DNA from: Heterotrichella gracilis
Lineage: Eukaryota > Sar > Xanthophyceae > Tribonematales > Xanthonemataceae
Assembly: GCA_032358255.1 (NCBI GenBank)
Contig: JAULBX010031924.1
Coordinates: forward strand, 101,481-165,480
Direction of reading: 5' to 3'
Length of the DNA stretch: 64,000 nt
The position numbers and the translations under genes were made by a program. Positions within the stretch are counted from its first letter, which is position 1; each line of letters starts with the position of its first letter. The notes below the pieces were generated by a model. That model did no database searches. It was not told the origin of the DNA and saw nothing but the letters and a program-made list of their open reading frames with translations. Positions 103 to 57,814 of the stretch are shown one piece after another.

Positions 103-1702
103 ACCACGCACGATTGCCGCATTCTTGCTCAGCTTCTTGTTCTCCCCTGGCGCTGCCTTCTTGGCCTTAACCCCCTTGCCCTTATCCCCGGGACCCTCCT
201 GACCCCCTTCCCCCTCCCTGTTGTGCTCAGGCGCCAGCTGGAGCGGCAGGCCCCCACCCAGCGGCCCCATGGGGTGTGGATGCTGTGGCTGGCGTTGCTG
301 TGCCTCAGCCATTGTTGCTGCTGCTAGGGCTCGAGACTCCAGCTCCTCCACCGATATGGCGTGCACCGCCCGCGGAGGGTTCATGTGGGGGAAGGGAGGG
401 GGCGGGGGTGCGCGGGGCAGGCTGTGGAAGTGGTCTGAGGGGGGAGGGGGCTGGGGCAGGTGGTGTGGTGGGCCGGGGGGCTGGCTGGGGAGGTGGTTGA
501 GGGGATCTTGGGACCAGATGCTGTTGCCGCCTCCCCAGATACTGTTGGTACCTAGGGAGCCAATGAAACCTGTTTAGGTTTTAAGGTTTAGGGTTTAGGG
601 TTGAAACGTGCTGTTGGTACCTGGGGTGCAATTGAACCCCGGGTTGTCATATCCCCTACTATTTACGTCCGAGACCAAGATAAACACCTTAGCAAGGGAC
701 CCTGCCAGGGCCTACATTGTGAGGCAACGACAATGCACGCGGTTTTGGTAGGGAAGGTGGCGCGCCAACCCCCATTGCTCCACCACCGCATGCCAGTGCA
801 ATGCCGTCAATGTGCACCACTTCAGCGTGCAATGCAATGCCTCTTTTATGCCAGATGAGTAGCCTCCCACACAGGCCAGTGCCGCATCAAGTTGTGGGGG
901 GCCAGGTGCACTGCATGTTGATCAGCATGCGTTTCCAGAGTATGTTTTGCAACCAATACAACACACCCCTAATGCATGCTTATGGCAACCCACCTCCCCA
1001 TAGCGCGCTGCCTCCCCACGTCGGCCCAGCCGCGGGCGCCGTGTCATCCCACAGCGACCCTGCACCATCACCAGGTCCCGGTGCAGGCACAGCTTGGGGC
1101 TGGAAGCTGTGCATGCCTGGTGGGGGCTGGCGCTGCCCTTGCAGGTTTCCTTGGTGGGGGTTCCCGGGCCGCATGAAGGAGGGCATTCCAGGTGGCGGGC
1201 CTACTTGATGAGGCTCTCCAGGCTGCATGAAGGCGGGCATTCCAGGTGGGTGCGGTGGCAAGCCCAGGTTGGGGGGTGGGGGGTGCTGAGGAGGTGGGTG
1301 GTGGGGATGAGGCTGGGGATGAGGCTGTTGCCAAGCACTCAAGCTGGGCTCTTGCAGCTGGAAGCCGCGATCAGGTGGAGGCATCGGAGGGCCTGGCGCA
1401 TTGCCCATCATGCCCTGGCGATGATGGTTGGTGCTCTGTAGGAGGGCCAGGAGGGATGCCCCATTGTTGGGCTGGGGCTTCTGAGGGAAGCCGTTGCCTT
1501 GAGCGAACAGGCCGTCGAGCGGAGATGGCTGGTTTGCTGGAGGAAACAGCGGGAAGTTGCTGCCCTGCTGCGGGTGGTGGGCGTGCTGGGTATTGGTGTT
1601 AGGGAATTGGCTGGGCTGCTGCTGCAACTGGTTGTTCAGCCCCAGGTTGAGGCCACCAAATGCACCCGCCACATCGCCAGGACCGTTGTTTGTGGCCCAC
1701 AT
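91..1702 (-). CDS. P/Q/G-rich low-complexity protein, function unknown
   Basis: I do not recognise this protein. The first exon (1702 down to about 985) starts at an ATG with an in-frame TAG three codons upstream (that TAG could also be a CCCTAG splice acceptor). It encodes an N/Q-rich head, then a proline-rich tract with near-repeats of PPGMPSFMRPGNPHQ. A second exon (about 557 to 91) repeats the tryptophan motif NSIWGGGNSIW, carries a long proline stretch, then an ordered-looking segment AISVEELESRALAAATMAE, and ends in a basic tail (KGKGVKAKKAAPGENKKL). The composition suits an intrinsically disordered RNA-granule or scaffold protein, but that is inference. The exon-exon phase was not closed exactly, so the donor near 985 is uncertain. 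The last residues (GFRV) and the TAG stop are encoded by a telomere-like CCCTAAA tract. Confidence 0.5.
541..639. repeat. Duplicated exon acceptor with telomere-like filler
   Basis: 541-570 and 610-639 are diverged copies that share CTGTTGGTACCT and a CAATGAAACC/CAATTGAACC end. Between them, 574-602 is a TTTAGGG-type tract. On the minus strand the lower copy holds the acceptor of the second exon of the P/Q-rich gene, so the upper copy is an acceptor-side ghost in the intron. Confidence 0.6.
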
Positions 1703-2670
1703 GGCGCCCTAGGGCCCCAGCCCAGCGGGGTATGTGCTGGTTTCAAGGGCTAATGCTGCACAAAAGACGTCTCAATGCATGAGAGCGCATTCTCGAAGGC
1801 AGGGCGCTTGTAAGGGGCCCACTCTACCTAGTGCGCGTCAGCCCGACTGCGTTCCTGAACACAGTATCAACGTCGCGTTTCTTCCTTATATGCGGTCGGT
1901 GGAAACCACCGACTTCATAAAGGGACAAAAAAAGGTGTCCATGATTGAATGTCGACCCCCTCGTTGACACTGGTGCAACACCCTTGACAAGGGCCTTCAA
2001 GGGTGAAGCCTTATGATAAGCCTTGGTCGGACCACATGCATATAGAACGGCAACCAAACGAGGAGCATAGTGCAAGTCGTGCGTTCTTATCTCAGTACGC
2101 ATCTGCGTGGTTGATTAAGCATCCCTCTGTAAGCATCACATCCATTATATCCTGCAGTGCATGTGCTTGTATGTCACGGTTGACACTGCCCTGTGCGTGT
2201 GCCGGTGGAAAGTGCAGCAACGCGCTGATACTGTAACCCATGCTGTCCGGTTACTGGTGTCGTTGCTGTGGTTGACCTTGCGCCTGCCGTAAAGGCATCC
2301 ATAGTCAATACATCTTGCTAGCCGTGGCGTCAACTTCCCAAACAGCGTGGTTACTGGGAGCGCCCAAACGCCAGCCATGCGCCATCTTGCAAGGCGTATT
2401 GCCTTTTCAGGATCGCCGCAGTCCTCCAAACCGTGTATGGTGTGCAACCAGTTCGCCAAGAGACAACGGCATGTGACTAGGCAGGAAACCCGGGTTAGGG
2501 CAACCCCGCAGGATGACTCACAACCCCAGTCCAAGTGAGTAGCAAGTGACCTGGCATACCCTTCAAGGCACCATTACACAATTACGCTCTCTTTGTGCAC
2601 GCAAGCTCAACCCATTAGTCACTACAGTACTGGGATCTGCAGTGTCTTCCTCACCTATCCCAGGCTACAC
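1703..2670. other. Intergenic region, no supported gene
   Basis: This is the probable divergent promoter region between the P/Q-rich gene (-) and cytidine deaminase (+). Open frames exist on both strands, but none shows domain-like sequence or paired splice sites. I see nothing else definable. Confidence 0.5.
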
Positions 2671-5299
2671 ATGGGCACCAAGGTCCTAGCTACCCCGCCA
2701 GCAACAACCCTTTGCAACCCTTGCAGGTTCTCCCAAGTGTCAGAGCTGCCCAACATCATACACAGTGACACGGTGTTCATAGACATCGATGCCCCCAAGG
2801 CTGCCACCGACACCAGCCCCCTGGCACTGGGTGGCAAGTTCAGGTGGGAATAAGAATAGTAACAATAATAATAACAAGTTCGAATAAGACAGGGGGACTC
2901 CCTCTAACAGGCCCTTGCAACACAAGTCTTTTTGCCATGTGAGGTGCACTCTCAACCATAGTGGTTCAGCCAACTGGGGGGGGATGTCTCTGGGTTGCAT
3001 GGGGAAGGGTGGGGAGGCTAACCAGCCCTAGGGAGGCTCTTCACCACTAGTTGTGTCACCCGCCAGCACTTGCGCCTTGCTGCAGGTTGATCCCTGCCGA
3101 TACCAGGAGGTGCTCCAAAAAAAACCATAAATTTCTTCATTTTTACCCAAATCAAATAAAGTCCCTCAGGCAGCAATGCGCCCTTCTTGCAGGTTGACCC
3201 CCGCCGAGGTCCAGGAGGTGCTCCAAGAAACTGGGTACAACGAGGACGAGCTGCTGCAGGCGCTGATACGGCCCGCCTCAACACTGGCTCGACCACCCAT
3301 CTCCTCGTTCCACGTGGGCGCAGTGGGCCTGGGTGCTTCGGGAAGCTTGTGAGTGCACCGCCACTTCTTTCACATGTGCATGCTGAGCCACACTGCCTAC
3401 ATCAGACTTCTTCTGCGCCATGACCAAAAATGAATAAAAATAATAGTAATAATATAAGAAACGGAATTGAATAACCTGCATGACTGTAGTGCACCGGTTG
3501 CAACCATTGAAAGCCATGCTCAGCTGCTCTGCAATCAGCTCCATGACCATTCTTCTCCTGTAGCGCACACCTCCCGCTGCGTGCGGAGCCTGCCTCTCAC
3601 CAGCAGAATCCTAAAAATTAAACCCTAACCCTGACTGACTTTGCTGGCCTGTGCCAGGTATGTGGGCGTAAATTTGGAGTTTGCCCGCCTGCCGCTGTAC
3701 AACAGCGTGCACGCAGAGCAGTTTCTGATTGTGAATGCGGTGCACCATGGGGAGAGCGCCATACGCAAGCTGGCGGTGTCGGCGGCGCCCTGCGGCCACT
3801 GCCGGCAGTTCTTCTGCGAACTAGGGTGTGCGGTGCGTTCCCAAACCCTAAACACTGGACCCTGAACCTAATGGGATTTTTGGCGAGCTAGGGCGTGCAA
3901 GCGTTGCTAAATTCTGAACCTTTAACATCTTCTTGGCAAGCTGGGGTGCGGTGCATGCGAGGTGGATGCGTGGGTAAGGGACTTAGGTGCATGGGGGGTG
4001 CATGGGTGTGCGGTGAGTCAGTAGTGGATGCATGTGTGTAGGGATCAAGGCGTAGGCGGGGCGCATGGGCGTGGGATTACAAGCACAGAGCTTGATGCCA
4101 CTGAATCATTTGTACGCACCCAAATGGCCAGCATGGGCTCAATCTTCCTGAGGATCCTTCAAACAACAAACCCAACTGGGGTATCGCAGGACGAGATGGA
4201 GATCGTGTTCAAGAACCGCAGCCACACCCTGGCGCAGATCCTGCCCGAGCGCTTCAAGCCCTCCGACCTGCTCCCAGACACCCAGCTGCAGCTGCTGCTG
4301 GAGCGACAGGACAACTCCATGAACTTCACAGACGGGGTGTACCACCTGCTCCAGGCGCGGCAGGACGATTCCTGCTTCCAAAAGGCGGCGGATGACGCCA
4401 TGCAGGAGGCCAGAGGGGTGGGTGGCGCTTTCTGGTGACAAGTCCCAAATGTGTCTGGTGCATGGCATGTGCACCTGCCCATCCATTGCTGCATATTGGC
4501 TTGATGTCATAAGTGACGGTAGAACAATGTAAAAGTTAAATGAAGAATGATGGCAATTATCGTCCATTGAATAATAGTAGTAAATAATAGTGATAAGGTG
4601 GGTTAACAAACAAAAAGTACTAGAAGACCTTTGCAATCCCATAAATGATGCAAGATTGGCACAAAGGTATGACGACTCTGACATGTGGCTGTGTGGCTGC
4701 AGTCCTACGCGCCCTACAGCAGGTGTCCGGCAGGGGTGAGCATTATCCTTGCCAGCGGCGAGGTGTACAGCGGCGGCTACATTGAGAGTGCGGCCTACAA
4801 CCCCTCCATCCCCCCGCTGCAAACCGCCATCATCGACGGCATCATCCAGGGCATGCCCACATACGCCGAGGTGCGCGGTGATCATGTATGCAATGTGCGC
4901 ATCTGTGGGCAGTAGTGCGAACCCTAACAGGTGTATCCAGTAAGATGCATGTGCTTGCCACGTACAACACTGCGTACACACAGGGCACTGTGCCGGACCA
5001 CCCCCACCCCCAGCTTGCATACAGCATGAGGCTCAATGATCCGCTAGCCTGGCATGTCAATGTGCTTTGGCAAGCTTACCTCCTGAGGATATGCTTTGTT
5101 TGCTGCAATGGTTGGCCATGCTCCTGCCCCTTGAAAAGCCCTGAACCCTTTGAAAACCCTAGACCATGTGCAGGTGCGGGAGGTGGTGCTTGTGGAGCTT
5201 GAGGGCGCGCCTGTGCACCATGCGCCGACCATGCGAGTCATCCTAGAGCAGATAGCGCCACACGCCCACCTCACGCTGCTCACGGCACTAAGGGAATAG
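2671..5299 (+). CDS. CDA: Cytidine deaminase, plant-type (two-domain)
   Basis: Hydrolyses cytidine/deoxycytidine to uridine/deoxyuridine in pyrimidine salvage. Six exons join in phase: 2671-2843, 3193-3348, 3658-3832, 4190-4417, 4703-4870 and 5174-5299, giving about 341 residues; plant CDAs are near 300. The zinc and catalytic signature is complete: HAEQF carries the zinc histidine and catalytic glutamate, and PCGHCRQF the two zinc cysteines. The second, degenerate deaminase-like half is present ([14 protein letters not shown], then [13 protein letters not shown]), as in the plant dimeric enzymes. The start is uncertain: ATG 2671 is the first in-frame ATG, but a good TTGCAG acceptor ends at 2726, so the true first exon could lie further upstream and the segment from 2727 be exon 2. 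Several introns carry ghost copies of the exon edges. Confidence 0.92.
3072..3120 (+). repeat. Acceptor-side ghost of CDA exon 2
   Basis: This copies the region around 3178-3230: a TGCAGGTTGA acceptor followed by CCAGGAGGTGCTCCAA. It then breaks off into an A-rich tract before the true acceptor. It lies in the intron upstream of the real exon and cannot keep the frame. Confidence 0.75.
3841..3959 (+). repeat. Two donor-side ghosts of CDA exon 3 with CCCTAAA filler
   Basis: The exon end, CGAACTAGGGTGTGCG at 3817-3832, is echoed at 3876-3904 (GCGAGCTAGGGCGTGCAAGC) and again at 3929-3959 (GCAAGCTGGGGTGCGGTGC). A degenerate CCCTAAA/CCCTGAA tract at 3841-3870 separates the real edge from the first ghost. 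Confidence 0.65.
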
Positions 5300-6024: not shown

Positions 6025-7994
<1,970 letters not shown>

Positions 7995-18200: not shown

Positions 18201-21200
18201 GGATTCTGCGCAACCAAGCTGGCTGAGGGAGACATAGGTGCGGGTGGAAACTAATTGGGGCCGCAAGGGGTGCATTAGTATAATGTGCAAAACAGGCAAG
18301 AATTGTTCGCCTCAGGGCGTGGCCATTTGATCAACATCGGTAGTGTGAGACTGCATGAAGTTGTAGTCTGCTTCACTGGGCTGCCTATGGCACTGGGGAG
18401 AGGCCAGATCAGCAGACAACCTTGCACAAGCGGCGCAATACAGGTCACCTGTCACAGTTCTCGTCATTTGCTGGTACAGTGCGATCAAGGTCTCCAATTG
18501 CGCATGGCGAACCGACCCCTGGTCCTGTGTGCTGTGCAGGGGATGTGGAGGAGCTGCCAGAGGGTGCTGCCGGGGAGATGCTGGCTGGGCGCTACCAGCT
18601 GCACATCAGGGCGTCAGGCAGCGAGGAGCTGGCGGAGACATCGGCGCGGGGCGAGGCCGAGGGGGGGGACCCTGACGCTAGCTCCACAGGGAGGGAGGAG
18701 GATGGGGGGTCGCCCAGCGCAGCAGTTGGGGGGGGCATCAGGTTCACCGACAAGGATGAGCACATGTACTTTTGGTTCCCGCTGCTGGCGGGGCTGTCGG
18801 AGCTCACCTTTGACCCACGGCCTGACATCAGGTGCGCAGGACGCTTAAGTGGAGATCGCCGCCTGACAGTACCTTGCGATGATGGCGCCAGATGTTGGCT
18901 TCATTTAGTGCCACCGTGGTCTCATGTCATCAGCAATCACATTTGGCCAGTGTAGCACATGACCTGGTCCCATAACTGCATGGTGCATTCCTGCATTTCT
19001 CAATTGCCACCCCCTGGTAGCGTTTTAGGCAAATTTAGTGGGGGCGTCACTTGCATGGTGCAACCCTGCATCCACGCGCTCACGCCAGGGTCCTTTGGTG
19101 CTGCAGGAAAGCCTCGTTGTCTGTCCTGTTCTTCACCCTGAAGGAGCACGGGCAGTCGTTTGAGCAGAAGTTCTGGATCCGCATCTTTGACTCGGTGCTG
19201 CTGCCCATCTTTGACCACGTGCGCGCCGAGGTGACCGACACAACCACATTCACCGATGACAAGCGCCGCGCGGAGGTGGACTCGTGGCTGTACGACACAG
19301 CCAAGCAGTGCCTGCAGGTAAGGGGTGGAGGGGCTGGGGGTGGGGGTTATAGCGCGAGACATGGTCATGAGTGCAAAAGCCATGCACATGTGGGGGGGCA
19401 TTGGTGGATGGGTATGGAAGGAGAAGGAACTGCCATTGTGTGAGCCAATGACATGGGGTGGAAAGTAGCTGGCATGTGCACAGTGCGTTTGGTTTGCCTG
19501 GCGGTGGCGGCATGTGCCTGGCAGATGCGTGACCGACCCTAAACCCTGACCCACTGTGGTGCAGAACATGGTGGACGTGGTTGTCCAGTTCTACAGCATC
19601 ATCAGCATGATGCTGCCGCGCATCCTTGACCTGCTGCTGGGGTTCATACGGCGCACGCACCAGAGCCTGGCGGCGGTGGGCGTGGCGGCGCTGGCGAGGC
19701 TGGTCAACGGGGCGGGGCCGCACTTCACGGAGCAGGTAGGGAAAATCTTCCTTGTGTCCTCTTTACCACAGGCAAGCACATTTCCCGGCCTTCAAGTCAG
19801 TATCATTCTTGCACAGCATAACTCAACATTGGGCAGGAGGCATGTGCTCCTTTTTGCTCTCCTCTTGTTGACGACAGGTGGGTAAACTGCATCACTCAAC
19901 CTGCATCACCTGTTGCTTGCCAGCGTAGAATCTTTTACCTTTCTTTTAATTTACTTGTTATTTCAATTATTTTACTTTTGTTCAGGTGTGGATGGATGTG
20001 ATGGCCACCATGCAGACTGCTGTTGCGGACACGCTGCCAGACATAGTGGGCCTGGTCAACAAGGAGCAGGGGCCAGAGGCGCACACAGAGGAGGAGCCAG
20101 CCAGCCCCTCATCGGCGTCGGGGCAGGATGGGTCGGAGAGGGCATGGTCGCTGGCCTACGGGGCGGGCTCGCGGCGGCTGGCAGAGGTAGGGTTTGCAGG
20201 GTTTTGTTTACCCTTTAGTGCGCTGTGGTGGCGCCTGGGTCACCAACCCCTGCCTAAGCAGCAGCTGCTGCTGGGTTGTACATGTATGTAGTTAGATTTT
20301 ATGTACGGGTAGTCACACAGGCAACCTGTCATTGTGCGGTTCCGTGCCTCTGTGAGCCCCTCCCTGGCTAGGCCTTGGCTAGGTACCTGTGTGGGTAGTT
20401 CAGCTGTCCATATGCATGTGGTGACGCCAACATTCCCTGGTGCGTGCGCAGGTGCGGTGCCGCGCCTCCGTGCAGCTGCTGCTTGTTCAGGCCTTTGGCG
20501 AGGTGTACACGCAGCACAACCGGCGGCTGAGCGGGCAGGCCATGGCGCACATGCTGGACACGCTGGTCATGGTGGCCAACCACGCGCGCAGCATCAACTC
20601 GGACTTCAACCTCAGGCAGCTGCTGCTCATGACGCAGCTGAACGACATGGTGGGTAACGGAGCGGTGGCAGGGGGGGAAGGGTAGCATCTGCATGTGGCG
20701 CAGGCCAGTGGCATGATGTGCACTGTCAGTGGACGTGTGGACCACAAACACTCGCTCTCTCCACACACCATTTCTTCCTCCCACCACCTTGCCCTCTGCA
20801 GCAAAATCGCCCTTTGCATTCCATTTGCCTACGCTCCCTTGATCAAGCACCTCCCTTCCGCCCCAGGTTGCCGGGGACCGCAACCTCAAAACCCTGAACC
20901 CTAAACCCTGCACCCCTCCCCAGGTTGCCGAGGACCGCATGCTCCCCGACCCGCCCCTGCTCAAGCTCGAGGTCGAGGCCACCACCGCCTACCTGTCCAT
21001 GCTGCAGCACCTCAACGCGCTGGGATCAGCAGACGTCAAGGGGCTGTGCGGGCTGGAGGAGCGCCTGGTGCAGCTGTGCATACAGAACCTGCAGCGCTTC
21101 GAGTCTGGCGGTGAGCGCGCGCGGGACGGAGGGCTGTGCTTGCATGAATGAAAATGAATTGCATTGATGAAAATAAGATGGCATTCATGAAAATGAATGC

Positions 21201-29028: not shown

Positions 29029-32000
29029 TCACCCCCCTTTCACCACCAGCTTTGCCTGCAGCTCGTGCTCCAGCAGCCGCATAAGCACCTCCCCCTTGCG
29101 CCCCGCCGACGAAAGCCGGTAGTACCGACACAGCGTCCGCAGGTCAGACAGCCGACACGCCGACAGCGCCTTCTCCCGATCAGCCCACGCCATCACTATG
29201 GGCGCCCCATCCGCACCCCCCTTGGGCTCCGGCACGCCGGCGGGGTAGGAAGATCTCTTCCCCCGCTCCTTGGGCAGGGGGAGCAGCTTGAACGCGCCAG
29301 AGGGGGGGGCGCGGGTGACGGCGGCCTGCGCCGCCGAGGCGGCGCGCACCGCCGCCTCGGCGAGCGACGCCGACGTGATGGCGGTGGTGCCGCGGGTGAG
29401 GGAGCGCACGCCAGGGCGCGTGAGTGGGGGCACGGGTGGGGCGTCCTGCGGGCGGGGAGGGGGGTGGCCAGGGGCAGCGGGCGGGCTGCATGCGCTCTTG
29501 TGGGGTTTGCAATGATGCAAGGTAAGGGACACCTCAGTGCATGTACACACTGCTGCGCATGTGTGGTTACAGACCACCTCAGTGCATGTAAACACTGTGG
29601 TGCGCATTTGTAACCAACTGTGCACCCTAGCTAGGGTTCCTTTTTCTCTAGGGCCTCACCCGTAATCGCCCTGGCTCCCCCACCGCCTCTTGCAGCATCA
29701 AGGGGATTGGAGAGGTGGGCTCGGGCAGCAAGGGGGGGGAAATCGCCACCCCGCCCTTGAAATCAGGGGAGGCCGCCGCCTGGGCGCTCTGCAGCAGGCG
29801 GTTGAGGTAGGCGGTCTGCGGGGGAGGGGGCAATGTCAGCATCACAGAAAACATTGGAGGAGTACGCAAGCATATTAGGATAATGGGAAGAGCACGTACA
29901 CCCACGACGGCGTGCACGCAAACAGGGGCTAAGCCAGCAGGATGTGCAAGGGGGCGCTAAGGGGGCGCGCTGCCCAGGGAAGGGAAGCAGTGACAGGACA
30001 CTGCAGGGCAGGGAACTGGCGTATGCCCTTTCTGTGGCTCATATGAAGATTTAGAACCGAGGTCTACATTCACCAGAATCACAAGGAGAAAACCATGTGC
30101 AGATACCCCGCTGCTAATGGACTTGGTCCTACCTACTTTGCCTAATCTGCTCCCAGAATATACCGCTCATAGACTATGAGCCATAGTCGTGCGAGGACAT
30201 AAACCCTAAACACAAACCCTATCCTATGCAATCCCTACCTTCTTCCCCTTGTCTGCTCCCAGTCGGTACCAGTCGTAGTAGGGTACGCTCACCACGGTCC
30301 ACCCCAGCGCCCGCAGGAGGCGACGCCTGGAACACCACAAACACACCCGCTCTAGGGTTCAGGTGGCAGGTATCAGGGTTTAGGGTTTAGGGTTTAAAGC
30401 GTCGGGTATTGAGCGCGGCGAAGGGGTACCGCACCTTGCCTGGGAAAGGAGGTGAAACCATAGCATGGAGTGAACAGTGATGTAAAACGTTTCGGCCCCA
30501 CCCAAACCCCACCCAAACCCTAGCCCGTTCCCCACCTGAGTATGGTGTGCCCCAGTGGCTTGCACGTGTTGACGGTGAAGTGGTAGGGACCATCCACCTC
30601 CACAGCCAGCCTCCTCCCTCCATCCTGCACACACATCGACAAATGATAAGATAAATACATGATTCAGGCTATACAATGGAAGACCAGGGGTGGGGGCACT
30701 TCAGGCAAGCACACTGGTTGCAGTACACATGCCACGCCTACTGGAAAGCAACCCACATGGCAGATGCCCATGCATACCTTGCCCTCAGTTGACTCGAGCG
30801 CCATTCAGGACAAGACCCTGACACACCATCACCACACACACCCCACGCCACCCCCATCCCCACCATCGCAGCCTCCCCCACCTACACTGTCCACGCTAAA
30901 CAGCCCATCCTCTGTCAGATCCCCATGGTGTGTGCCACCCCCATCAGAGACAGCACTAGGGACACACCACCACCACCACCACCACCACCACCACCACCAC
31001 CGCCACCACCACCACCGCCACCACCACCGCCACCACCACCACTGTCGCACCGCCACCATTGCCACTACCACCACCACAGCAACAGCCACATTCACAGCCA
31101 CCGTCAACATAACCCCCACCCCCACCGAATCCACCACCACCACCCCACCTGAATGGCAATGTCCACGCTGAACAGCCCGTCCTCCGTCAGGCACTCGTTG
31201 GTGTGCGCCACCCCCATCAGCGACAGTACTAGGGACACATCCCGGTGGAAAGCAGATAGCTGCACACTGGTGGCGGTGGCCTTCCAATGCCTGCAGACGG
31301 AGGGAAACCGTGAGGGGTTGTGTTCAACCCTAAAATGAGCTGGCCACTGGTGGCAGTGGCCTTCCAATGCCTGCGCACAGGACACAAAGATCACGCACGT
31401 CATCCTTCCAATTGAAGAGCTACAATGCCTGTGGTTTCAAACTTCAATTACAAGGAATTGCTAGCTTTTTTTACTTCTACGCTAACACACATCGATTTCA
31501 GGGACTTTTTCAACAAATCCACTCACTTCTGGGGTTTCCACTCACTTGAGGGTTTCACAAGGCCTAGGCTAGGGTTTCACAAGGCCAAGGCCCTAGGCTA
31601 GGATTTCCACTCACTTTATTGCCTCCTCCAGCACCTCAATCGGGATATCAAAGCTGACCTGGGCGGGCACAGTGCCCCTTCGCACCTCAGCCAGCGCCTC
31701 TAGCCGGGCCAGCAGCAGTGCCTGCAGGAAATTGAGGGCAATGCATGCAGAAACTGAGGGTCTTGCCTGCGAAAATTGAATGCAATTCCTGCACACATTG
31801 AGGGCGATATGGTTCCATGGGGATACGGTGTGAAGGTGGCGTTCCCCAGGTGCATGGAGAGCATTTGCAGGTTGGTATTTAGGGTATTGTGTGGGCATGC
31901 ATCGCTTACCAATATCTTAAAAGCACACACAACATCAGTTCTACTTCCCCTCACCTGGAACAGCTGGTGCATCTGCACAGGCTCCATGCCCTCCAACTAC

Positions 32001-35000
32001 GAACTACCCAGACGAAACAACTCTGGAATTTTAACACAAGGACCATGCATTTTTATACCCGCACAGGGGTGTTTTGACAACCATCTTTACCGTCCCCAGG
32101 TTAGGGAAGTGACCGACACCAGAGATTTCCATCTCCCACCCAATACCCTACGCTAAGGTTCCCCCTCACCTGGAACAGCTGGTGCATCTGCACAGGCTCC
32201 ATCCCCTCCACCCCGCAGTCCACCAGGTTGGCGATCAGCGCTCGGAAGGCGGGGTGGATGGTGGACCGGAGCACCGCAAGGGCCCACAGCACGTTACTAC
32301 ATGCCTGAGGGGTAAAGGTGTCGACCTGGAGGGGAGGGGAAGGAGGGGGTGGGTTGCAGTTAATTGTTTCTTAGAGGTGTGCGATTATGCACATCTGAAG
32401 AATACAAAACCAATTTACAAAGTCACGGAATCCCTCCATGAGCCCTGTGAACATCTATTTCAGGGCATCCTCTGCACTTCGCGCTGGTCTGATTTACAAA
32501 CACAGGTAGCCACGTACATTCCCCTATCACTTCCCCACCCAGCACCCTACCCGCACCCTAGCCCCTCTCCCCCCACCATTCATGGTCCATGATCCCTAAA
32601 AACCCTGAGCCCTAAACCCTAAACCCACTTTTGCCTCTATCTCCCTCAGGAACACCGCCAGCACCCTGCCCGGGTGGCAGCCCAGCTTTGCAAATGCCCA
32701 CAGGCAGTTGGACATCTCCTGGTCGTTCAACCCAGGCAGGCGCCGGTCAACCTCAGCTGCAGGGGGGGAAGCAAGGATTTTAGGGTTTGTGTTAGGGTTT
32801 TGCCAGGCGCCGTTGAACACCTGTCATTGGCATACAAGCGTTGCTTGCGAGCCTATGTCGCTTGCTCCATGTACGACAGTCCCAACATTCCACACAGCCA
32901 CACATGCTGTTTACAATAACCCTGTGCTACCCTCACCAATGAGGGACTCCAGCAGGGTCTCTGGGTAGTAGCGCATTGCGGCAAATGCCCACAGGGTGTT
33001 GGAAATGGCTTGGGGCACAAAGGTGGTCAGGCGGCCCGGGCGGGCCACATCCTGCTCAAATGCCTGCGTATTTAGAGGGGGAGAAGGGGGGTCAGGGGGT
33101 GAAATGGCATGTGTCATGGGGGTGTGAGTCAATGTGCGCAGTACTGGGGATCGCACATCATGCATGCATTGTGGCCTCAAATGACAATGTGCAACAACCT
33201 CAACCCACACCTGCGCACTGCAAGACATTGCAAGTGCAACTTTCCATGGTCGTGATTAACCCTTGTATATGTTCTACCCTCGCACCCCCCACCCCCTCCA
33301 ACAGACACCGCCACGTACCGCCACAAATTGCAAATGCAGCACGTTCATGCACACCTTATATAAGGTTCTCCCCCCCCCCCCCCCCGATACATCACCAATA
33401 CCCCCAACCCCACCCAACCACCACCAGCACCACCACCACACCAATACCACCACCACCACCTCCCACTTACCGCCAGGAACTGCAGGTGCACAATGTTCAT
33501 GCGCGCAAACGCCAGCATTGTGTTGGACAGCTCCTGCGCGTTGAACTCGGGCAGGCGGCGGGCAGCCTCAATGCCAGCTATCTCAAAGAACCTAAGGGAT
33601 AATAAAACATATGTTTTAATAAGTAGACAACTGTATACAAGAAACCAAGTAGTGGATCTTGGATGCATGGATGATTGAATGAAAAATGCAAGCAATACAA
33701 ATGGATGGATGATGTACCAATGGAAGCCTCATCCAGCTACAGAGAAAACTTGAGAAATGACAGAGGAGAGATGCCCAATCTAGCAGGCAGGTAAATCTCC
33801 CCCTTTCGTCCCACACCTCCATCCCAGAACCAAAAAACATCCATGCAGTAACCATGTTGCTTTACCTGGGGTGGGGCCGGTTGATGGTGGCAAAGGCCCA
33901 CAGCGAGTTGGAAATCGCCTGCGCAGCGCACTCCTCCAATCGGTCCCCATCGGCCATCTCATCCCCGATCGCTTGCAGCAAATCGTCGTCTGTGTAGTTG
34001 AGCACCGCCAGGCTCCATGCGATGTTAGAGATGGCCTGCGCGGCAAACGGCTGCAGCCCCCGCCGCCTGATCTCTCCAGTGATGCGCTCCAGCGCGTCCG
34101 GCCTGCACCAGGGGATGAATACATGGAACGCTTTGACACAACCAGGAGAACCTGTGGAATGGAATTACACTTACATGGACCTTCCGTATAGTTTACACTG
34201 GATTGATCTCGCCTGGCATGAGCGCGTGTGAGGCGTAGGCTAAGGACAAGACAGAATGACCTTGCGGCCCCCCGCCTTGCCCGGGCGGAAGCCAATCCCT
34301 CCCTTGCCCTCCCTTGCCCTTGCCCTTCCCATTGCAAATGCAATTGCCATTACCATCAGCATTTCCGTTTCCATTGCCATTGCCATTTCATCACCATTTC
34401 CATCATCATTTCCATTTCCGATTCCATAACCACCATTACCCTGCCCTAATCCTAGAAGAAGAAACAATAATGACCGCAGTTTGCCCTTACCCTCCCCAAA
34501 CCCCACCTGGCACAGGCTGAGCGCCCAAATGCCCAAGCTGTGCTGCCTGCCCCTGTCGTACACCTCACTTGCCCTTACCCTACCAAAACCCTAAAGGCAA
34601 ACCCTACCTGCACAGGTTGAGAGTCCCGAAGGCCCACATGGTATTACTGATCTCCTGCTCCTTGAAATCCCGGGGATCCAGCGCCACCACCCGGTCCAAC
34701 ATGGGGTCCAAAATGAGGGGGTCGCTGATTTCCAGGGTGGCGAGGCCCCACAGGATGTTTGCCACCTGGCGCGCCCCCAGCTTTGGTATGTGGTGCCGCA
34801 CCCGGTCAAGCAGTGCAGGCAGGTGGGGGCTGGCACGAACCGTGTCGGAGCGGGCCTAAGGGGGGGGAGAAATATGGGGAAATGTGAGGGTCCTGGAGTG
34901 CATCATTCTGAAGCGCTAATAAATGGCATAATTGTGATAGAGACGATAGGGATGAAACTGGGAAAATGTGCCCTCAGCTTTTAATATGTGGAGGCATATG

Positions 35001-37359
35001 CAGCAGACAAGCAGGTGGGGGCTGAAACGGACCAGGGTGGAGCGGGCCTTGGGGGATGGGTGTAGAAACGTGGGACTCAGCGCAAGCCTCCCCGCCCCGC
35101 CCTCGTCTCGTCCCCTCCTTAATCCCTTCACTACCAACCCCTTACAATTGCGCATTCAATAACAACCAAACCTCATCCAAAACCCTGCACGCCCGTGGTT
35201 CACGCCCTGCCACCACCACCCACCACCAACACCACCGCCAACACCACCATCACCCCACACGCCTTACCCGCGCCTCCGACATCGTCCGGGCCAGCCGATG
35301 CACCGAGGTGGCGCAGTTAATGACATCATAATACTCATGCAGGTCCCGGGTGATGTGGTACACGCTTCGCCACCCACTGGCCCGGGTCAGCAGCTTGTTG
35401 ATCGCCACGTGGAGCGCATCCGCAACATCCCCCATGGCTGCATCGGCTTTCCCGGGCACCGGCACCCCGTCTTCATCCAGCAGGCCCACCTCTTGGAGCT
35501 TGCGCGCGTAGTAGCCGGGCTCCAGGGCGGCTGCGGGTGGGGTGGGGGGTGGGGGGTGGGGCCAGGGGGGGAAGGGGGGGAAGGGTCGGCATTACGAGGG
35601 TGGTTGTGGTGGTGCAGTGGGGGGGAATAGGCAAACAGCTACATCTGAAACCTAATTCTTGAGATCTAACTTATTCCTGGGCTTTGCGGTCCCCACTACA
35701 GGGTAGGGTTTACGGCATGCAGCAGCGGCGCCCCTAGGCACTCTCCCCCACCCTTATTCACACGACAAAATGCGCAGGGGTGGCCGCACTCCCAAACTTG
35801 ATTGTAGTGATCTAACCTACACCAGGGATGCGCCACCTCCAGTTCAAGGTTTCAATATAGGGTTTGGTTCCAAGCCACTCACCCAGCTGCTCGTCCTTCT
35901 CAGTGACCTTGATATGGAGCAGGGGCGACCCCCCCGCGTCATTCGAGTATCGGTTGCGCTGGGACTGCCGCCGCTGCCACGAGCCATTCTCTGGCGCCTC
36001 TCTCCCCCCCCCTTCCTCCCTCCCCCGCGTGCCTGCGTACTGTTTCCTCCCCTTGGATGCCCCCCCTTCCCTGGCAGCGTCCCCCTTGGTAGCTGGCTGC
36101 GGTTGCTGCTGCTGCTCTGGGGATTGTGGGGGTGGGGAGGGTGTTTTGTGTGCCGAGCGGGGGTTGGGGGTGGGGTCCTCCAGGAGGGGCTTGGAGGCGG
36201 GGGTGTTGGGTGGGGGGCGGGTGGGGGGTGAGGGGGGGCTGGTGGCTACCTTGATGACTTCATTGGAGGGCTCAACCCTCTCGGCTGCAGGTGGAGGGTT
36301 TGGGGTCAGGGTTGGGGATTCAGGGTTTTGGACAGTTTCAGCTTCTCGTGCAGGGGGTTTGGCCTGGCCTGGCCCTGTATTTGGTCACATGGGAGGGGTC
36401 CATGATAACGTTTGTAGCTTCCCATCTACCCTATTGTGAAATGAGCCCCTTCCCCCGTCCATCGTATGGACCCGCATCCGCCACTCTACCAATCAATTGG
36501 GATAATCAAAATATGATTCAATGCTTCCACTCATTTTGCACAAGGATGAGGTCCCAATCTCCTGCTGCAACCCATGCACTCCCCTCCCCTCCCCTACACA
36601 CCGGGTACCCAAATCGCGTCCCTCCATCCTGCGTCACCCCATGCACCACCCCTCCCACCCACCTTGTACCAAGATGAGGTCCCACCCCTCCCATGCATCA
36701 CCCCCCGGCCTTCAACATCCACAATCTCAACCCCCCATTTACCTACATTAACAATAACAACCCCCTCCACTTCCTACCTGGTACCGAGATGAGGTCCCTC
36801 CCCCCCGCCCCATCCCACCGCGCGGGCACCTCCTCCCCCACCTCCCCCCACAGCTCCTCTTCCTTGTATTCCCCCTCTTCCGGCAGCTTGCCTTGGACCA
36901 GGGGGGGGGGCTTGGGCCCGCGGCGGGGGCGGGGGGGACGGCGTGTGCCTGCGGAGGGGTGGGGAGTGGGGGATGGAAAAGAAGGATGCGGGAACGCATG
37001 CGATGGAAGGGGTGCATGTTGGTGTGCGTATAGTATATGTGTGTTGGTGAGGCTATGGTGTGTGTTTGGTGTGGTATGTGTGTGGTGGGTGCGTGTACGC
37101 ACGTGGCGCATCAGTGCCCTTGCTAGGGTTTAGGGCTTATCGTGGATGCTGTTAGGGTTTACGGCTTAGGGTGTGTACGCACGTGGCACATCAGCGCCCT
37201 TCTCCTCCCCAGCCCCAGCCCCCTCCCCCTCCGGTGTGGCGTGGGGGGTGGGCAGGCGCCGGTGGGTACTGCGGCTGCTGGTGGAGCAAGCACCCAGTCC
37301 CCCTCGCTGGAGGGCTCCTCCCCATTGTGGGGGCTGGGGAGTGGGGGGCGGGGCTGCAT
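29029..37359 (-). CDS. OPR/FAST-type repeat protein with RAP and SAP domains
   Basis: Probable organelle RNA-binding factor acting in chloroplast or mitochondrial RNA processing or translation. At least 15 exons. From the N-terminus: a disordered Pro/Gln/Gly-rich part (37359 to about 35880); a helical stretch (35530-35280); then about eight degenerate repeats of the QAISNTLWAFA type at 34860-32170 (RQVANILWGLATL, QEISNTMWAFGTL, QAISNIAWSLAVL, QAISNSLWAFATI, QELSNTMLAFARM, QAISNTLWAFAAM, QEMSNCLWAFAKL, QACSNVLWALAVL). A full RAP domain follows (31290-29790), with LAVEVDGPYHFTVNTCKPLG and RRLLRALGWTVVSVPYYDWY. The last exon adds a SAP-like helix-turn-helix (LSACRLSDLRTLCRYYRLSS to LMRLLEHELQAKL) before the stop. 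ATG 37359 is chosen because the next junction (GTGC|GTACAC to 36955) then closes in phase; a transit peptide is not obvious. Introns are rich in ghost exon edges. Confidence 0.85.
30131..30287. repeat. Donor-side ghost of the second RAP exon with CCCTAAA filler
   Basis: The real exon edge (+ strand 30235-30287: CTACCTTCTTCCCC, TCTGCTCCCAG, TACCAGTCGTAG) is echoed at 30131-30181 (CTACCTACTTTGCC, TCTGCTCCCAG, ATACCGCTCATAG). AAACCCTAAACACAAACCCT at 30201-30220 lies between them. Confidence 0.75.
30895..30964. repeat. Donor-side ghost of the first RAP exon
   Basis: This copies 31163-31235 (shared CAGCCC(A/G)TCCTC(T/C)GTCAG and GCCACCCCCATCAG). It is separated from the original by a long (CAC)n tract. 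Confidence 0.8.
30965..31140. repeat. (CAC)n/(CCACCG)n microsatellite
   Basis: Long, nearly pure CAC triplets decaying into interrupted ACC/CCG units, in a RAP-domain intron between a ghost and its parent exon. Confidence 0.95.
31339..31380. repeat. Acceptor-side ghost of the first RAP exon
   Basis: CACTGGTGGCAGTGGCCTTC and CAATGCCTGC here copy 31266-31300, the real exon start (minus strand). This exon therefore has ghosts on both sides. Confidence 0.75.
31953..31998. repeat. Donor-side ghost of an OPR exon
   Basis: CCTCACCTGGAACAGCTGGT and the following CACAGGCTCCAT are identical to 32165-32205, the donor end of the repeat exon. The copy lies about 210 bp further along the intron in the direction of transcription. 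Confidence 0.9.
32738..32824. repeat. Acceptor-side ghost of an OPR exon with TTTAGGG filler
   Basis: The real edge GCAGGCGCCGGTCAACCTC (32739-32757) recurs as GCCAGGCGCCGTTGAACACC (32802-32821). TTTTAGGGTTTGTGTTAGGG at 32777-32796 lies between them. Confidence 0.75.
34501..34645. repeat. Donor-side ghost of an OPR exon with CCCTAAA filler
   Basis: CCACCTGGCACAGGCTGAG and GCCCAAATGCCCA (34504-34536) copy CTACCTGCACAGGTTGAG and GCCCACATGG (34606-34641). CCCTACCAAAACCCTAAAGG lies at 34579-34598. The true donor GTAGGGTTT is itself telomere-like. Confidence 0.7.
35010..35056. repeat. Acceptor-side ghost of an OPR exon
   Basis: AGCAGGTGGGGGCTGAAACG and GGAGCGGGCCTTGGGGG copy 34817-34866 at the real acceptor. 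The copy lies upstream in the direction of transcription. Confidence 0.75.
37096..37203. repeat. Donor-side ghost of the first OPR exon with TTTAGGG filler
   Basis: GTACGCACGTGGCGCATCAG and TGCCCTT (37096-37122) copy 37174-37201. Two TTTAGGG-type tracts (37126-37139 and 37152-37171) lie between ghost and parent. Confidence 0.8.
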
Positions 37360-43551: not shown

Positions 43552-46500
43552 TTACTCCGCGGCTCCAATCCTCATCCCCTCCTCCTCCGCCTGCACCGAC
43601 TCCCTGAGCTTGGGGCAGAAGGTGTCCACCAGGTGACCCACGCAGTAGCGCAGCGACCTGTCCCTGTGGCCCGGCACGTGGCGCAGCATGAGCTTCCACC
43701 TGCGCTGCGCCTGGACCCCGGTGCGCCCCGCCACCAGCTGACCCCAGGGCACCTCCCAGGGCTGGGTTGCGGGGCTTGCCAGCAGGGATTTGAGCATGCG
43801 GCGGTCGTCCCCGGGGCCCCACTCGCCTGCGGGTGGGGACGAATTCTGGTGTGAGGATTGTTGTACATGATATGATACTGCACCCTTTTCAACCCTGGCT
43901 CTCTTTGGTTTCATGTTGCCTCGCTGGCTAACCATGGTGGCCAGAATCACACCATCACACACCCACACCCACACTCTCCCACAAAGATGGCCTCTCCCCA
44001 CAACTCTCCACCACAAATTGGCACAGCACACAGGAAGCCCTATACCTCTACTCCCTCCTACACCCGCCCGCCCCACACCGCACAAACCCCCGGCCCCACC
44101 TCCTGCCACAATTGACGGGCACAGGGTGCGGTACCACTTGTTGAGGCACTGGCTGTGTGAGCGGGCGCCCACTGCGCAAGAAAACCCTAAACCCTAACCC
44201 CAAACCCTAGCTCCTACCTCTTGCCACCATTGACGGGCACAGCGTGCGGTACCACTTGTTGAGGCACTGGTTGTGCGAGCGGGTGCCCACCTCAGCCGAC
44301 ACCTGGCGCCACTCAATATCGTCCAGCTGGATGTTGGTGGGCAGTGGGGCGGAGGGGTCCAAATGGTGGGCAGAATCCTGCAACCACAAGGGTACATTTG
44401 CGTGAGAAATCTAAATGAGAGAACTCAATTAAAACCAGATCAAGAGAGTACATAGGAATAGGCCATCCCTAATCCAAGTATATCCCTTGTTCGTTTGGAA
44501 GCAGAAGCGGGGAGATGATCCTGTAACAGCAGAAAGCATGTCTTCCCCATGACAGAAATACTGTGATATCGTACGGAAGAAGGCATACCTGCTTTGTCAC
44601 CATCACCTCCTCCACTGCCCTCCTCAGCCGCGCAATCTCGTCCTCTGACCAGGCACCAGAGTTCTTGGCAGCACCCAGCTCCATCTCACGCCACCTGGCA
44701 GCCACATGACGTTAGGTTTTTTTAATAGGTAATAGGGTTTGTGCCTAGAGTATCATCCCCTTTCAGGCACTGGAGTTCTTGGCAGCACCCAGCTCCATCT
44801 TCACGCTACTTGGCAAGTGTAGGACCGTAGGACGGGAGACATGTCAGCAAACTTGGCCAGGGTACAGGCTAGGGTACACCAGTAGAACCCCAACACTGTA
44901 GCACCATCCCCACCCCACCACCAGAGTGATACCCCACCCCACCCCCACCCCCCGGCCCCCACCCACCTGTCCCTGCAGCTGTCCGGTATCCTCCCCAGCG
45001 CCGCCCCAATCTCCTTCCACATGGACACCTTGGAGGCCACCAGCTCAGCCAGCTGCGCATCCTCCTCACTGGACCACTTGCCCTGGGGGAATGGGAGGCA
45101 AAACCCTTAGCTAGGGTTCCTGAAGAAGGTGAATCAGCAGCTAGGTTATTGGCAACCTAGCATGCAAAATATTTGTATAAAAAGCCCACTGATCTACTTG
45201 TCCAGGGACATCAGAGGATGGGGTAAAACCCTTAGCTAGAAATATTCAAAGTAGGAGCTTCCCTTGTTCCACAGCCTGAACCCCGCAGTTCCACACCGAC
45301 TGAAGGTGCCGTAATGCATGGCAGCGCCTGCACGACCTCCTGCCAAGGCCCTACAATACAAACCCTACCCCAGGGTTTCACCTCACAACTTACCGATTAA
45401 ACCCAAGGAAACAGCCATTACACCAGGGTCAACCCCACATCCACCCACACACCTGGTAGTTCCCCGGGTGGAACAGCCTGAACCCGCAGGTCCACACCGA
45501 CTTGAAGGTGCGGTGGGGCAGCGCCTGCGCAATCTCCTGCCAGGGCCCCATCTCCGCCCCTTTCCGCCTGTGCTTGCGGGCCTCAAACAGCCAGGAGTGG
45601 TCCCCGGGATCCATGCCATGCTGCTCCGCGTAGGCGGCCACCGCGGCCTTCAGGGTGTCTTTTTCGGCCTGGGAGAACCTGCCGCGCTTGGCGTTGGTGC
45701 GCTTCTCGTCCTTGCGCCAGTTGGTTTCGCCTGTGTGTGAGGGTGAGCGATGGTGGGCGAGGAAGTTGGGGGTGCAGGGCGTGGTTGCAAATGGAAAGGA
45801 GGGGGTAAGCGCATTGCAGAGCATATCCATCATCATTCATGGCAAAAATAACTATATTTGGAATTTATTCATTCGAAATGAAGGTGCTTGGGGCGTGGAA
45901 AGGGGTAATGGATGTGGTCGTCAATGCATTCAATTCTTACGCTGCAGGCGCAAGGGCCAGGTGCATGCATGCCTTGGGTTCCGTGGTCCACAGCTCATTA
46001 CACCTGCATGCCCTACAAATCATACTCAAATGCACTGACCTAGACCCTGAACATGCAATTATACACACCGCATGCACACACAAAGCTTTGCAGATGTCTA
46101 CTCGCCAACGACCACATTCAACGATGTCCAAATGCCAACCCGAATGCACCGCCCTAAGCCATAAATCCCCTAGACATGCAAAACCTACATAGTACCACCC
46201 CACCTGGCCGCTCAGAGATGGCGAGGCCCCCAAATCCAATGTCTTCAATCCCCTCATCCTCCACCCCTTCACCCTTCTCCATGGCCGCTGGAAGGGGCGA
46301 TCCAGGGCCCCTATGTGCGGTCTTTTTCTTCCTCCCAGCAGGCTGATCCTCCGGGGCTGGTGCTGCTGCCTCCCCCTCCCGTTTTCGCTTCTTCTTCTTT
46401 TTCTCCTTCTCCCCTGACTGATCCTCAGGCGCTGACGCTGCTGCCTCCCGCTCCCGTTTCCTCCTCTTCTTCTTTTTCTTCTTCTCCCGTGACTGATCCT

Positions 46501-55551: not shown

Positions 55552-57814
55552 ATGGTGGAGCAACTAGACGTGCGTGGCTCATCCACGTGCGAGGTGGACC
55601 GGCGCATCAGGGAGCGGTCTCCGCTTGTGCAGTGCATCACCAACTTCGTGTCCATGGATCTGATGGCAAACACGCTGCTCGCTGCAGGTGCCTCGCCAGC
55701 CATGGTACGAGGCGTATATCAGCGTTTGTGTACACACATATCGTGTAGGTGGGGGCATTGCTGCAGCAAAACGCCACTTTTGACGGTACCTGGGCATTCC
55801 ACTTCCACATATGCATGCATGCATCGACACAAATGGACATATGCATGCATACTGCCGCCAGCGGCACCAGAAGACTCGCGTAGACACCGCCTAACTGGGC
55901 GATCGGTGCCGATAACTGGCCTTGCACCAACGTACTCAGTCAGTGAATATTGTAGGTTGGGCATCTGAAACCCTAAACCCTTATTCGGTACCCTAGCTAG
56001 GTGACAAATTCTCCCTGGTCCACCCTCGAGGATCATATTCCCTCCCCGGGATTTCCCCTGACAGGTCCACGCCCCCGACGAGGTTGAGGAATTTATCTCT
56101 ATCGCTTCCTGCCTCCTGGTCAACATAGGCACACTGAGCACAGGCTGGGTGGCGGCCATGAAGCTGGCGGTGGCGCGGTGCAAAGCCCTAGGGAAACCCT
56201 GGGTGCTGGACCCGGTGGGGTGTGGGGCAACCACCCTGCGCACAAAGGTAGGCCCCGCTTGCTGCAACAATAAAGGAAACAATAATTTATTGAGTGAATG
56301 AATAGTAATCACTTGTGGACATGGGCGAGGCGCAAGTGTGCAATTGTGAATGGTGGATAACTGTGTTTGTTGCCACGTAAAAACTTGGGTCCCATCCTAA
56401 AATCTACGCATACTATGGCTGCAGGTCAAGCCCTCGTGAGGACATGCCTTGACTGCATGTGCATGTATTCAAGCCATTACTGTGAACCCTAAACTTTAAT
56501 ATGCCGCTAGCTGAAGCCTATTTGCATGACAGCTCTTGCCGCACACTTGCCAACCCCCTCCCCCCGCAATTTCCCAACCCCAGGCCTGCGTCGACCTCCT
56601 ATCCCTGGGACCCACAGCGGTGCGTGGCAACGCATCAGAAATCCTTGCCCTGGCGGGGGCTGCAGGCACCACCAGGGGGGTAGACAGCACTGCCAGTGCG
56701 CACGAGGCGCTGGAGGCTGGCCAGCAGATAGCGCGCGAGTACGGATGTGTGGTGGGCATATCCGGTGAAACTGACCTGGTGCGTGGGGGTTGGCTGGGGC
56801 GTGGGGTGTGTGTGTGCATGTGGGGGGTGAGTGAGTGCAATTGTGACGGTGATGGGCATGACAGAATGCAATTGCATGTGCAGGGTACGGGTGTGAACGT
56901 GTGGTTGTGATTGTGCATTTGCATGGGCATGTTTAGGTCAAGGATTTAGGGTTTAGGTAGTGCATTCCAATGCCACCAGGCTGTTGCCATTTCCACCCTC
57001 ACCCTTGAGTGCGCATCCACATGTCCCCACTTGTTGCGTTGCGACAGGTGACAGATGACGAGCGCGTGGTGAAGGTGGATGTGCTGCAGCATGGTGAAGG
57101 AAGTGTGGAAGTGGGGTTGCTGCAGCGCGTGACTGCCACTGGTTGCTCTGTGACTGCGCTCATTGCTGCAGCGCTGGCGGTGGCTCAGGACCAGCCGATG
57201 TTGGCAACAGCACATGCGCTGGCGCTGTTCAAGTACGCCTAAGTCCTAAACCATAGTTAAATCATGCTCTGGCGCTGGCGCTTTCAAGTACGCAAAACCC
57301 TGAATGCGGACTGCAACAATTACCCTGGCGGTCTTGGAGTATGCCCTACACCCTAAACCCTAGCCAGCCCATTGTGCATGCCCCAGCCCAATTTCGGCCT
57401 GCCAATAAAAGCAATTGCATTGAAACGCCACCCAATGCATACCGTACCGTATCATTTGAAGCAACAAGCAAGTTATTACGCCTCATCTCAAGTATGAGGG
57501 TGTCAGCCAAGTTGGCTGAGCCAACGCTATTATTGTGGTCAGGGATGACGCAGGGTGAGAAACTATCGTGCCAATGGTGGTCAATGCCCCGCGTGCCTGC
57601 AGGTTGCGGCCACTGAGGTCGTGGAAGGGCCCTGACCCCTAAACCCTAAACCCTAAACCCTAAACCTTGTGCCTGCAGGTTGGCGGCCACTGAGGCGGTG
57701 GAGGAGGGTGCCCAGGGCCCAGGCAGCCTGCGGGTGGGGTTGCTGGATCGGCTGCATGAAGGGCAGGAGCGGGACGAGATTAACTGGGACAAGGTGGTGT
57801 TGACGCTCGAGTGA
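55552..57814 (+). CDS. THIM: Hydroxyethylthiazole kinase (ThiM)
   Basis: Phosphorylates 4-methyl-5-(2-hydroxyethyl)thiazole for thiamine salvage. Five exons close exactly in phase: 55552-55704, 56065-56247, 56584-56778, 57048-57232 and 57679-57814, for 283 residues, normal for the family. Motifs: PLVQCITNFVSMDLMANTLL and AAGASPAM (substrate site), LLVNIGTLSTGWVAAMKLAV, PWVLDPVGCGATTLRTK (nucleotide and phosphate binding), RGNASEILALAG, ISGETDLV, and VTATGCSVTALIAA with the active-site cysteine of the ATGCS motif. The end, GAQGPGSLRVGLLDRL, is the usual GPGSF-type closure. ATG 55552 gives a short leader only, and the frame is open further upstream, so a longer N-terminus is possible. The last intron carries ghosts of both flanking exon edges. 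Confidence 0.95.
57217..57362 (+). repeat. Two donor-side ghosts of THIM exon 4
   Basis: The real edge GCGCTGGCGCTGTTCAAGTA (57217-57236) recurs at 57271-57290 (TGGCGCTGGCGCTTTCAAGT) and more weakly at 57323-57342 (CCTGGCGGTCTTGGAGTATG). They are separated by CCTAAACC, AAACCCTGAA and, after the last, CCCTAAACCCTAG. Confidence 0.75.
57592..57712 (+). repeat. Acceptor-side ghost of THIM exon 5 with CCCTAAA array
   Basis: GTGCCTGCAGGTTGCGGCCA (57593-57612) copies GTGCCTGCAGGTTGGCGGCC (57669-57688), and both continue ACTGAGG(T/C)(C/G)GTGGA. Between them, 57637-57665 is four CCCTAAA units, the longest pure array in the window. Confidence 0.9.

Follow-up and report, generated by a model that had tools for sequence, protein, structure and literature searches.

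Telomere-repeat tracts between direct copies of flanking DNA in the xanthophyte alga Heterotrichella gracilis

Why do short runs of telomere repeat lie far from chromosome ends, between two copies of the same few tens of bases, in an algal genome? The question is raised by a stretch of 64,000 nucleotides from Heterotrichella gracilis (assembly GCA_032358255.1, contig JAULBX010031924.1, positions 101,481 to 165,480 of the forward strand), called the window here. A sequence-only reading of this window had listed ten CCCTAAA/TTTAGGG tracts, each said to sit exactly between diverged direct copies of an exon edge, and had likened them to the outcome of staggered-break repair with telomere repeats as filler. 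We examined these sites, further sampled DNA and the whole assembly (68.5 Mb, 903 contigs). The association between telomere tracts and flanking duplication is real. We favour, with some reserve, the reading that the tracts are insertion scars, left where a staggered break was followed by telomerase addition at a 3' end, fill-in and end joining.

Tracts between direct copies

Short telomere arrays were found at non-terminal sites both in the window and in other DNA of the genome. For each listed site, the 150-bp flanks were aligned with each other and compared with 1000 random positions; p values are uncorrected for ten tests. Direct copies were seen at eight of the ten sites, with lengths of 25-78 bp or alignment columns, which upholds the claim of direct copies tens of bases long. 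At sites 3841 and 32777 the flank copies were not clearly above chance (p 0.07 and 0.20). The tract lay within 11 nt of both copies at five sites (574, 20888, 37126, 44180 and 57637), but at 30201, 34579 and 45360 the farther copy was 44, 43 and 94 nt away, so that "exactly between" describes only the first group. Site 45360, listed as a CCCTAAA/TTTAGGG tract, proved to be a palindrome, AAACCCT-N5-AGGGTTT.

542..639, minus strand: seam 1; copies 542-570 and 611-639 (29 bp, 83% identity, p 0.04), tract 572-602 (TTTAGGG on the plus strand).
20858..20939, plus strand: seam 2; copies 20858-20882 and 20915-20939 (25 bp, 92%, p 0.02), tract 20889-20909 (CCCTAAA on the plus strand).
30128..30262, plus strand: seam 3, loose; copies 30128-30156 and 30234-30262 (29 bp, 83%, p 0.05), 44 and 13 nt from the listed tract; tract 30200-30221.
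34498..34636, plus strand: seam 4, loose, with a degenerate tract (34579-34598); copies 34498-34535 and 34599-34636 (39 columns, 82%, p 0.04).
37093..37201, minus strand: seam 5; copies 37093-37121 and 37173-37201 (29 bp, 93%, p 0.03), tract with non-telomeric filler 37124-37172.
44095..44290, plus strand: seam 6; tract 44182-44209 between orphan copy 44095-44172 and working copy 44213-44290 (78 bp, 91%, p 0.004).
45271-45331 and 45473-45528, no strand assigned: exon piece duplicated around the palindrome AAACCCT-ACCCC-AGGGTTT (45360-45378); 62 columns, 84%, p 0.02; no tandem tract.
57593..57702, plus strand: seam 7; four-unit tract 57637-57666 between an orphan copy with a one-base deletion (57593-57625) and working copy 57669-57702 (34 columns, 91%, p 0.03).
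3841..3870, plus strand: listed site, unsupported; 15 bp, 133 nt away.
32777-32796: listed site, unsupported; 15 bp.
26640..26663, minus strand: tract without flanking duplication in the flank test.
19536-19547, 30375-30396, 51649-51685, 55968-55981, 56945-56957 and 57344-57362: further tracts without flanking duplication in the flank test.

Window tracts without duplication had been left off the original list. The window held 16 scored tracts, one of them too close to the edge to test; among the 15 tested, eight rows (seven sites) reached a direct score of 13. A search of the assembly for a second copy of the seam-6 region (43950-44450), as an empty site, matched only the region itself.

Beyond the window the tracts were abundant. 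CCCTAAACCCTAA occurred 7,831 times in the 68.5 Mb and its reversed control motif 13 times. The 211.5 kb not picked for the motif contained 43 clusters with 59 scored tracts; extrapolated roughly, this gives 19,000 tracts, mostly of about two units, or 14,000 clusters genome-wide. Their spread was uneven: 7 of 16 random pieces held none.

In 206 kb outside the window (103 tracts, merged to 99), a direct score of at least 13 was reached at 48/99 tracts, compared with 3/99 in inverted orientation and 9.0% of 5000 random positions. When one tract was taken per 300-bp cluster, window included (72 of 74 clusters usable, control positions 250-1500 bp away), direct copies were scored at 30/72 against 9.1% of local controls (binomial p 2e-13, approximate), and inverted copies at 2/72. 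The C2 loci had been picked for holding the motif, and counts without them are therefore given separately. Without motif-chosen loci the score was reached in 14/42 clusters against 7.9% (binomial p 2e-6, approximate), and in random contig pieces alone, window excluded, in 8/30 against 6.8% (binomial p 7e-4, approximate). With the chance level subtracted, roughly a quarter to a third of the clusters carried a recognisable duplication.

A comparison with microsatellites, as the sequence-only reading had proposed, was carried out on the sampled DNA. After loci with the same motif in the flanks were dropped (66 of 118 tracts and 97 of 130 microsatellites kept), a direct score of at least 16 was seen at 20/66 telomere tracts and 10/97 microsatellites (Fisher p 0.002); at a score of at least 13 the counts were 27/66 and 16/97. 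The reverse approach, starting from the duplications, gave the same picture. Of 77 spaced tandem duplications (spacer 8-130, low-complexity ones removed), 22 had a telomeric spacer where 4.4% were expected; in DNA not picked for the motif the proportion was 12/50 with 3.1% expected.

Possible origin of the tracts

Work on break-associated interstitial telomeric sequences (ITS) of mammals and work on fill-in by CST and Pol alpha-primase together lead to a model for the copy-tract-copy arrangement. Two nearby nicks, or one staggered break, would produce ends overhanging by about 20-90 nt. A free 3' end would be extended by telomerase, by one to a few template lengths of G-strand; CST would fill in the extended overhang, and end joining would then yield copy, tract and copy. 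Where the duplicated piece crosses a splice site, one copy would stay functional and the other would decay within the intron, leaving the intron longer. We infer the break, the enzyme, the order of steps and any general trend of intron growth. A TERT telomerase RNA-binding domain was matched, in two pieces, at a single place found in the genome (G000:C626:23723-24513), and Ku domains were matched at two places. A search of the genome for CTC1 gave no match, as did the same search of control genomes.

The structure of the seams resembles that of fill-in tandem duplications: direct copies of tens of bp (range 22-109 bp), adjoining, with or without filler. Fourteen of the 26 bounded seam events were clean, with a single tract and nothing telomeric nearby, and their inserts consisted of about 19-62 nt of telomere repeat plus filler. 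Thousands of copies, many of them flanked by direct repeats, might also suggest transposition, by a transposon, an introner or a telomere-tailed retroelement with long target-site duplications. We regard this as very improbable, as the clean inserts had no visible common body, copy length was variable, the listed recurring non-telomeric 7-mers beside tracts stemmed from at most four places, and RVT_1 matches in the 68.5 Mb numbered 58, a lower bound. By their coordinates, many of these at least 58 matches lay near contig ends or on short contigs; retroelements look scarce or poorly assembled in this genome. A candidate common retroelement or introner body with a target-site duplication of steady length was sought in a 270-kb sample and not found there.

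The register of the tracts was then considered, with starts measurable in 105 and ends in 101 of 121 tracts. On the G-strand, TAGGG (26/105) and TTAGGG (23/105) were the commonest starts and GGGTTT (34/101) the commonest end. Bounded seam events ended in GGGTTT in 10 of the 25 that were measurable among 26, and clean ones in 5/14. Genome-wide, exact 16-mers bounded by mismatches were counted for three of the seven registers: TTAGGG..GGGTTT had 504, the two others 250 and 84. In the class of 9-10 nt runs exact TTAGGGTTT was commonest (26/88), and among runs of at least 16 nt exact TTAGGGTTTAGGGTTT (8/38); the preferred register was less plain in runs of 11-15 nt. Since the exact 9-mer and 16-mer lead their classes, the favoured lengths of 9 and 16 nt have common ends, which hints at one and two rounds on a putative template 5'-AAACCCUAA-3'.

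The preferred register of tract ends fits templated synthesis. It bears on a first alternative, in which pre-existing telomeric fragments or circles were captured at staggered breaks by end joining, with no fresh synthesis. Capture predicts identical seams, but random fragments should end in all seven registers, whereas the observed ends were biased; we consider it unlikely. The register bias is the strongest pointer to telomerase. It is short of proof because AAACCCTAA coincides with the plant telo box and selection could be maintaining it; the telo-box register AAACCCTA(A) was present in the end, 16-mer and run-length counts alike. The motifs could thus be telo-box or splicing signals under selection, with the duplications incidental, an explanation suggested by the shared register (PMC3022908, for the part of that report used here) and by a palindrome of exact spacing that resembles a dimer site. 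In six events judged by eye, tracts were oriented three each way relative to the gene, evidence against a simple splicing signal, and selection on a motif does not predict flanking duplications. We give selection as the whole cause very little credence.

Several results weigh against telomerase addition at breaks as set out above. Binding-site selection on AAACCCTAA could yield part of the register bias. Without the filter, microsatellites (26/130) and trinucleotide repeats (7/21) reached a score of 13 above the random level, so simple repeats are not exempt from the effect. More than half of the tracts were scored as lacking a duplication in the 206-kb and cluster tests. Spacers were non-telomeric in 55 of the 77 spaced duplications; telomere sequence is therefore a common filler among others, and fragment capture gains from this, as the genome evidently uses other DNA too.

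The junctions belong with these results. On the G-strand 5' side the copy abutted the tract in three of the 14 clean seams, with 3, 6 and 1 nt in common, in a small and degraded sample; the remaining 11 had 1-15 nt of filler between copy and tract. The 3' side was similar, with abutment in 2/14. Every abutting joint shared at least one base, and overall microhomology was about at chance level. This lack of a clear excess of in-register microhomology is also what capture of fragments would allow. Filler was shorter on the presumed telomerase-priming side in 9/14 clean and 13/26 of all events, no clear bias. Two candidate signatures were dropped: junction microhomology as proof of telomerase, being not above chance (3/14 clean seams), and strand asymmetry of the filler (9/14 clean, 13/26 all, 8/12 by strict register).

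Part of the seam signal, finally, is due to local arrays. Another tract lay within 45 bp outside the copies in 11 of the 26 bounded events (2.9% of random 45-mers), and a tract lay inside a copy in five, four of which were also among the 11. The C2:262463 segment (bases 2113-2378, unit of about 60 bp) and the C2:241187 segment held minisatellite-like arrays in which every unit contained a telomere tract. Both findings would fit an order of events in which a tract already in place acted as a fragile or slippery site and the adjoining DNA was copied afterwards, through slippage or unequal exchange between tracts, as in minisatellite birth. Where tract and neighbour were copied together, a further process is indeed needed, for instance slippage or tract-to-tract exchange, and perhaps each C2 array grew out of one seam. 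As a general origin this order of events seems to us improbable: only a single tract was present in 14/26 events, and at exon edges the gene stays continuous on either outer side, a result hard to obtain from a single later copying step. The proposal of a staggered break with telomeric filler thus retains the telomeric seam filler, well above chance, and the preferred register in its favour, with chance-level microhomology and the array contribution on the other side.

The palindrome AAACCCT-N5-AGGGTTT had a variable core and a spacer of exactly 5 nt. Perfect copies numbered 476 genome-wide, compared with 39 for a 6-nt spacer, 59 for the opposite arrangement and 0-1 for reversed controls. In the sample the 5-nt-spacer form occurred 6, 13 and 31 times at up to 0, 1 and 2 mismatches, and other spacers in this arrangement at most 0, 2 and 12 times. 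The copies noted were as follows.

Window, 45360-45378 and 45101-45119: palindrome copies.
L041, 265, 656 and 4447: palindrome copies.
L042, 5136: palindrome copy.
L045, 5240: palindrome copy.

Palindromes with up to one mismatch lay between direct copies in 4/13 cases against a control of 13%, no clear excess. Facing pairs add to the points against the favoured reading: near pairs ran G-then-C in 11 cases and in the reverse order in 16, and at the 5-nt spacer the counts were 59 and 476. An origin of facing pairs from extension of both break ends was rejected, since their arrangement is opposite to that expected. The palindrome may be a dimer binding site, for which it is a candidate, or a paired form of the scar.

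Exon edges and intron length

The sequence-only reading had placed the copies at exon edges, with the outer copy decaying as an orphan in the intron. The location was checked against homologues for a thiazole kinase (ThiM) gene and is supported by Pfam for a Myb-like and a BIG2-like gene; for three events at locus L042 it was judged by eye only.

57233..57678, plus strand: thiazole kinase intron, 446 nt, GT-AG; both edges duplicated; three telomere-like pieces (one degenerate, by eye).
57216..57293, plus strand: duplication of the 5' edge of this intron, copies 57216-57238 and 57272-57293; spacer with the degenerate telomere-like piece (by eye).

The last thiazole kinase exon has its 3' splice site at the working copy of seam 7, and the copy in the intron is broken by the one-base deletion. 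The spliced reading matched homologues across the joint, which was compared by eye. The best named homologues were green algal, the top one, 63% identical, being in a record labelled Chrzof1, which we take to be Chromochloris zofingiensis. Judged from its sequence, this intron appears to have been lengthened from both ends, and it is the one clear case; intron growth is thus borne out in a single gene and not across the genome. In seam 6 a minus-strand Myb-domain exon ends in the working copy, with Myb_DNA-bind_6 in the copy's reading frame (Pfam). Copy 20915-20939 of seam 2 lies at the apparent 3' splice site (by eye) of a BIG2_C-like exon, for which the BIG2_C match (E 1.7e-5) was below the cut-off. 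Both genes agree with the thiazole kinase case. At L042, positions 4279-8700, in a gene with an LGFP repeat (one Pfam hit), exon-edge duplications flanked telomere tracts in at least three places and the palindrome in one, with edges set by eye.

Ten long open reading frames searched against Pfam gave one BTB domain, and a comparison of the window with Rfam gave no match at gathering scores. Two other tandem arrays in the window were built of 54-bp units (4.9 copies, 50380-50641) and 108-bp units (about three copies, 53247-53573).

A wider proposal is possible, and we put it forward tentatively: telomerase may act as a genome-wide insertion engine in this alga, having left template-phased scars between tandem copies at many thousand staggered-break repairs, and may be a main source of intron sequence by lengthening introns from exon edges. 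The paired scar AAACCCT-N5-AGGGTTT, with its fixed 5-nt core, would then point to a dimeric enzyme, or to a binding protein on the same sequence. If true, telomerase in break repair, thought rare, would become a major shaper of a nuclear genome, and tract, register and copies together would document thousands of repairs in readable form. Genomic scars alone would predict the template of the alga's telomerase RNA, as 5'-AAACCCUAA-3', and a mechanism of intron growth would become testable by comparison of sister strains.

Comparison with known systems

Among the openly licensed papers listed in our searches we found none on such tracts in algae, their numbers, their share of duplications or exon-edge cases. 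The reports cited here are drawn on in part, and statements about them refer to those parts. As in intron gain by tandem duplication or introners, intron sequence here comes from duplicated or inserted DNA; here, in contrast, an existing intron seems to have been lengthened, and no wholly new intron was seen. Internal telomere repeats are shared with a green alga, Chlamydomonas reinhardtii, for which the consulted text describes one blot band of about 200 bp, suggests end-to-end fusion and mentions no duplications (PMC6549138).

Plant telo boxes share the AAACCCTA(A) register, and their authors propose that a non-processive telomerase acts a single time on free 3' ends where chromatin is open. 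Telo boxes, however, are single motifs that favour the 5' ends of genes, and the portion of the report used here gives no flanking duplication (PMC3022908). Fill-in by CST and Pol alpha-primase is required for tandem duplications at 3'-overhang breaks in mouse and human cells; overhang-length direct copies and end joining are common to both systems, whereas the relevant text mentions no telomere repeat at the seam (PMC8355091).

The pattern also matches that of mammalian ITS, where insertions are tied to breaks and the duplicated flanks are put down to staggered breaks as the probable cause (PMC7215372). Short internal telomere arrays, some flank duplications, fillers and hits in introns are found in both (PMC2246262, PMC7215372). 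In-register bases common to the break occur at about 75% of rodent insertions (PMC2246262), whereas microhomology was not above chance here. Plain flank duplications were reported at 6/130 rodent, 4/25 primate and 3/66 horse loci, with two more horse loci in complex events, or 4.5-16% of sites (PMC2246262, PMC7215372); in H. gracilis 33-42% of tract clusters scored, 8-9% of it by chance and with a different method. Mammalian genomes hold 100-326 loci of at least four units each, compared with a rough 14,000-19,000 tracts, mostly of about two units, in the 68.5 Mb of this alga.

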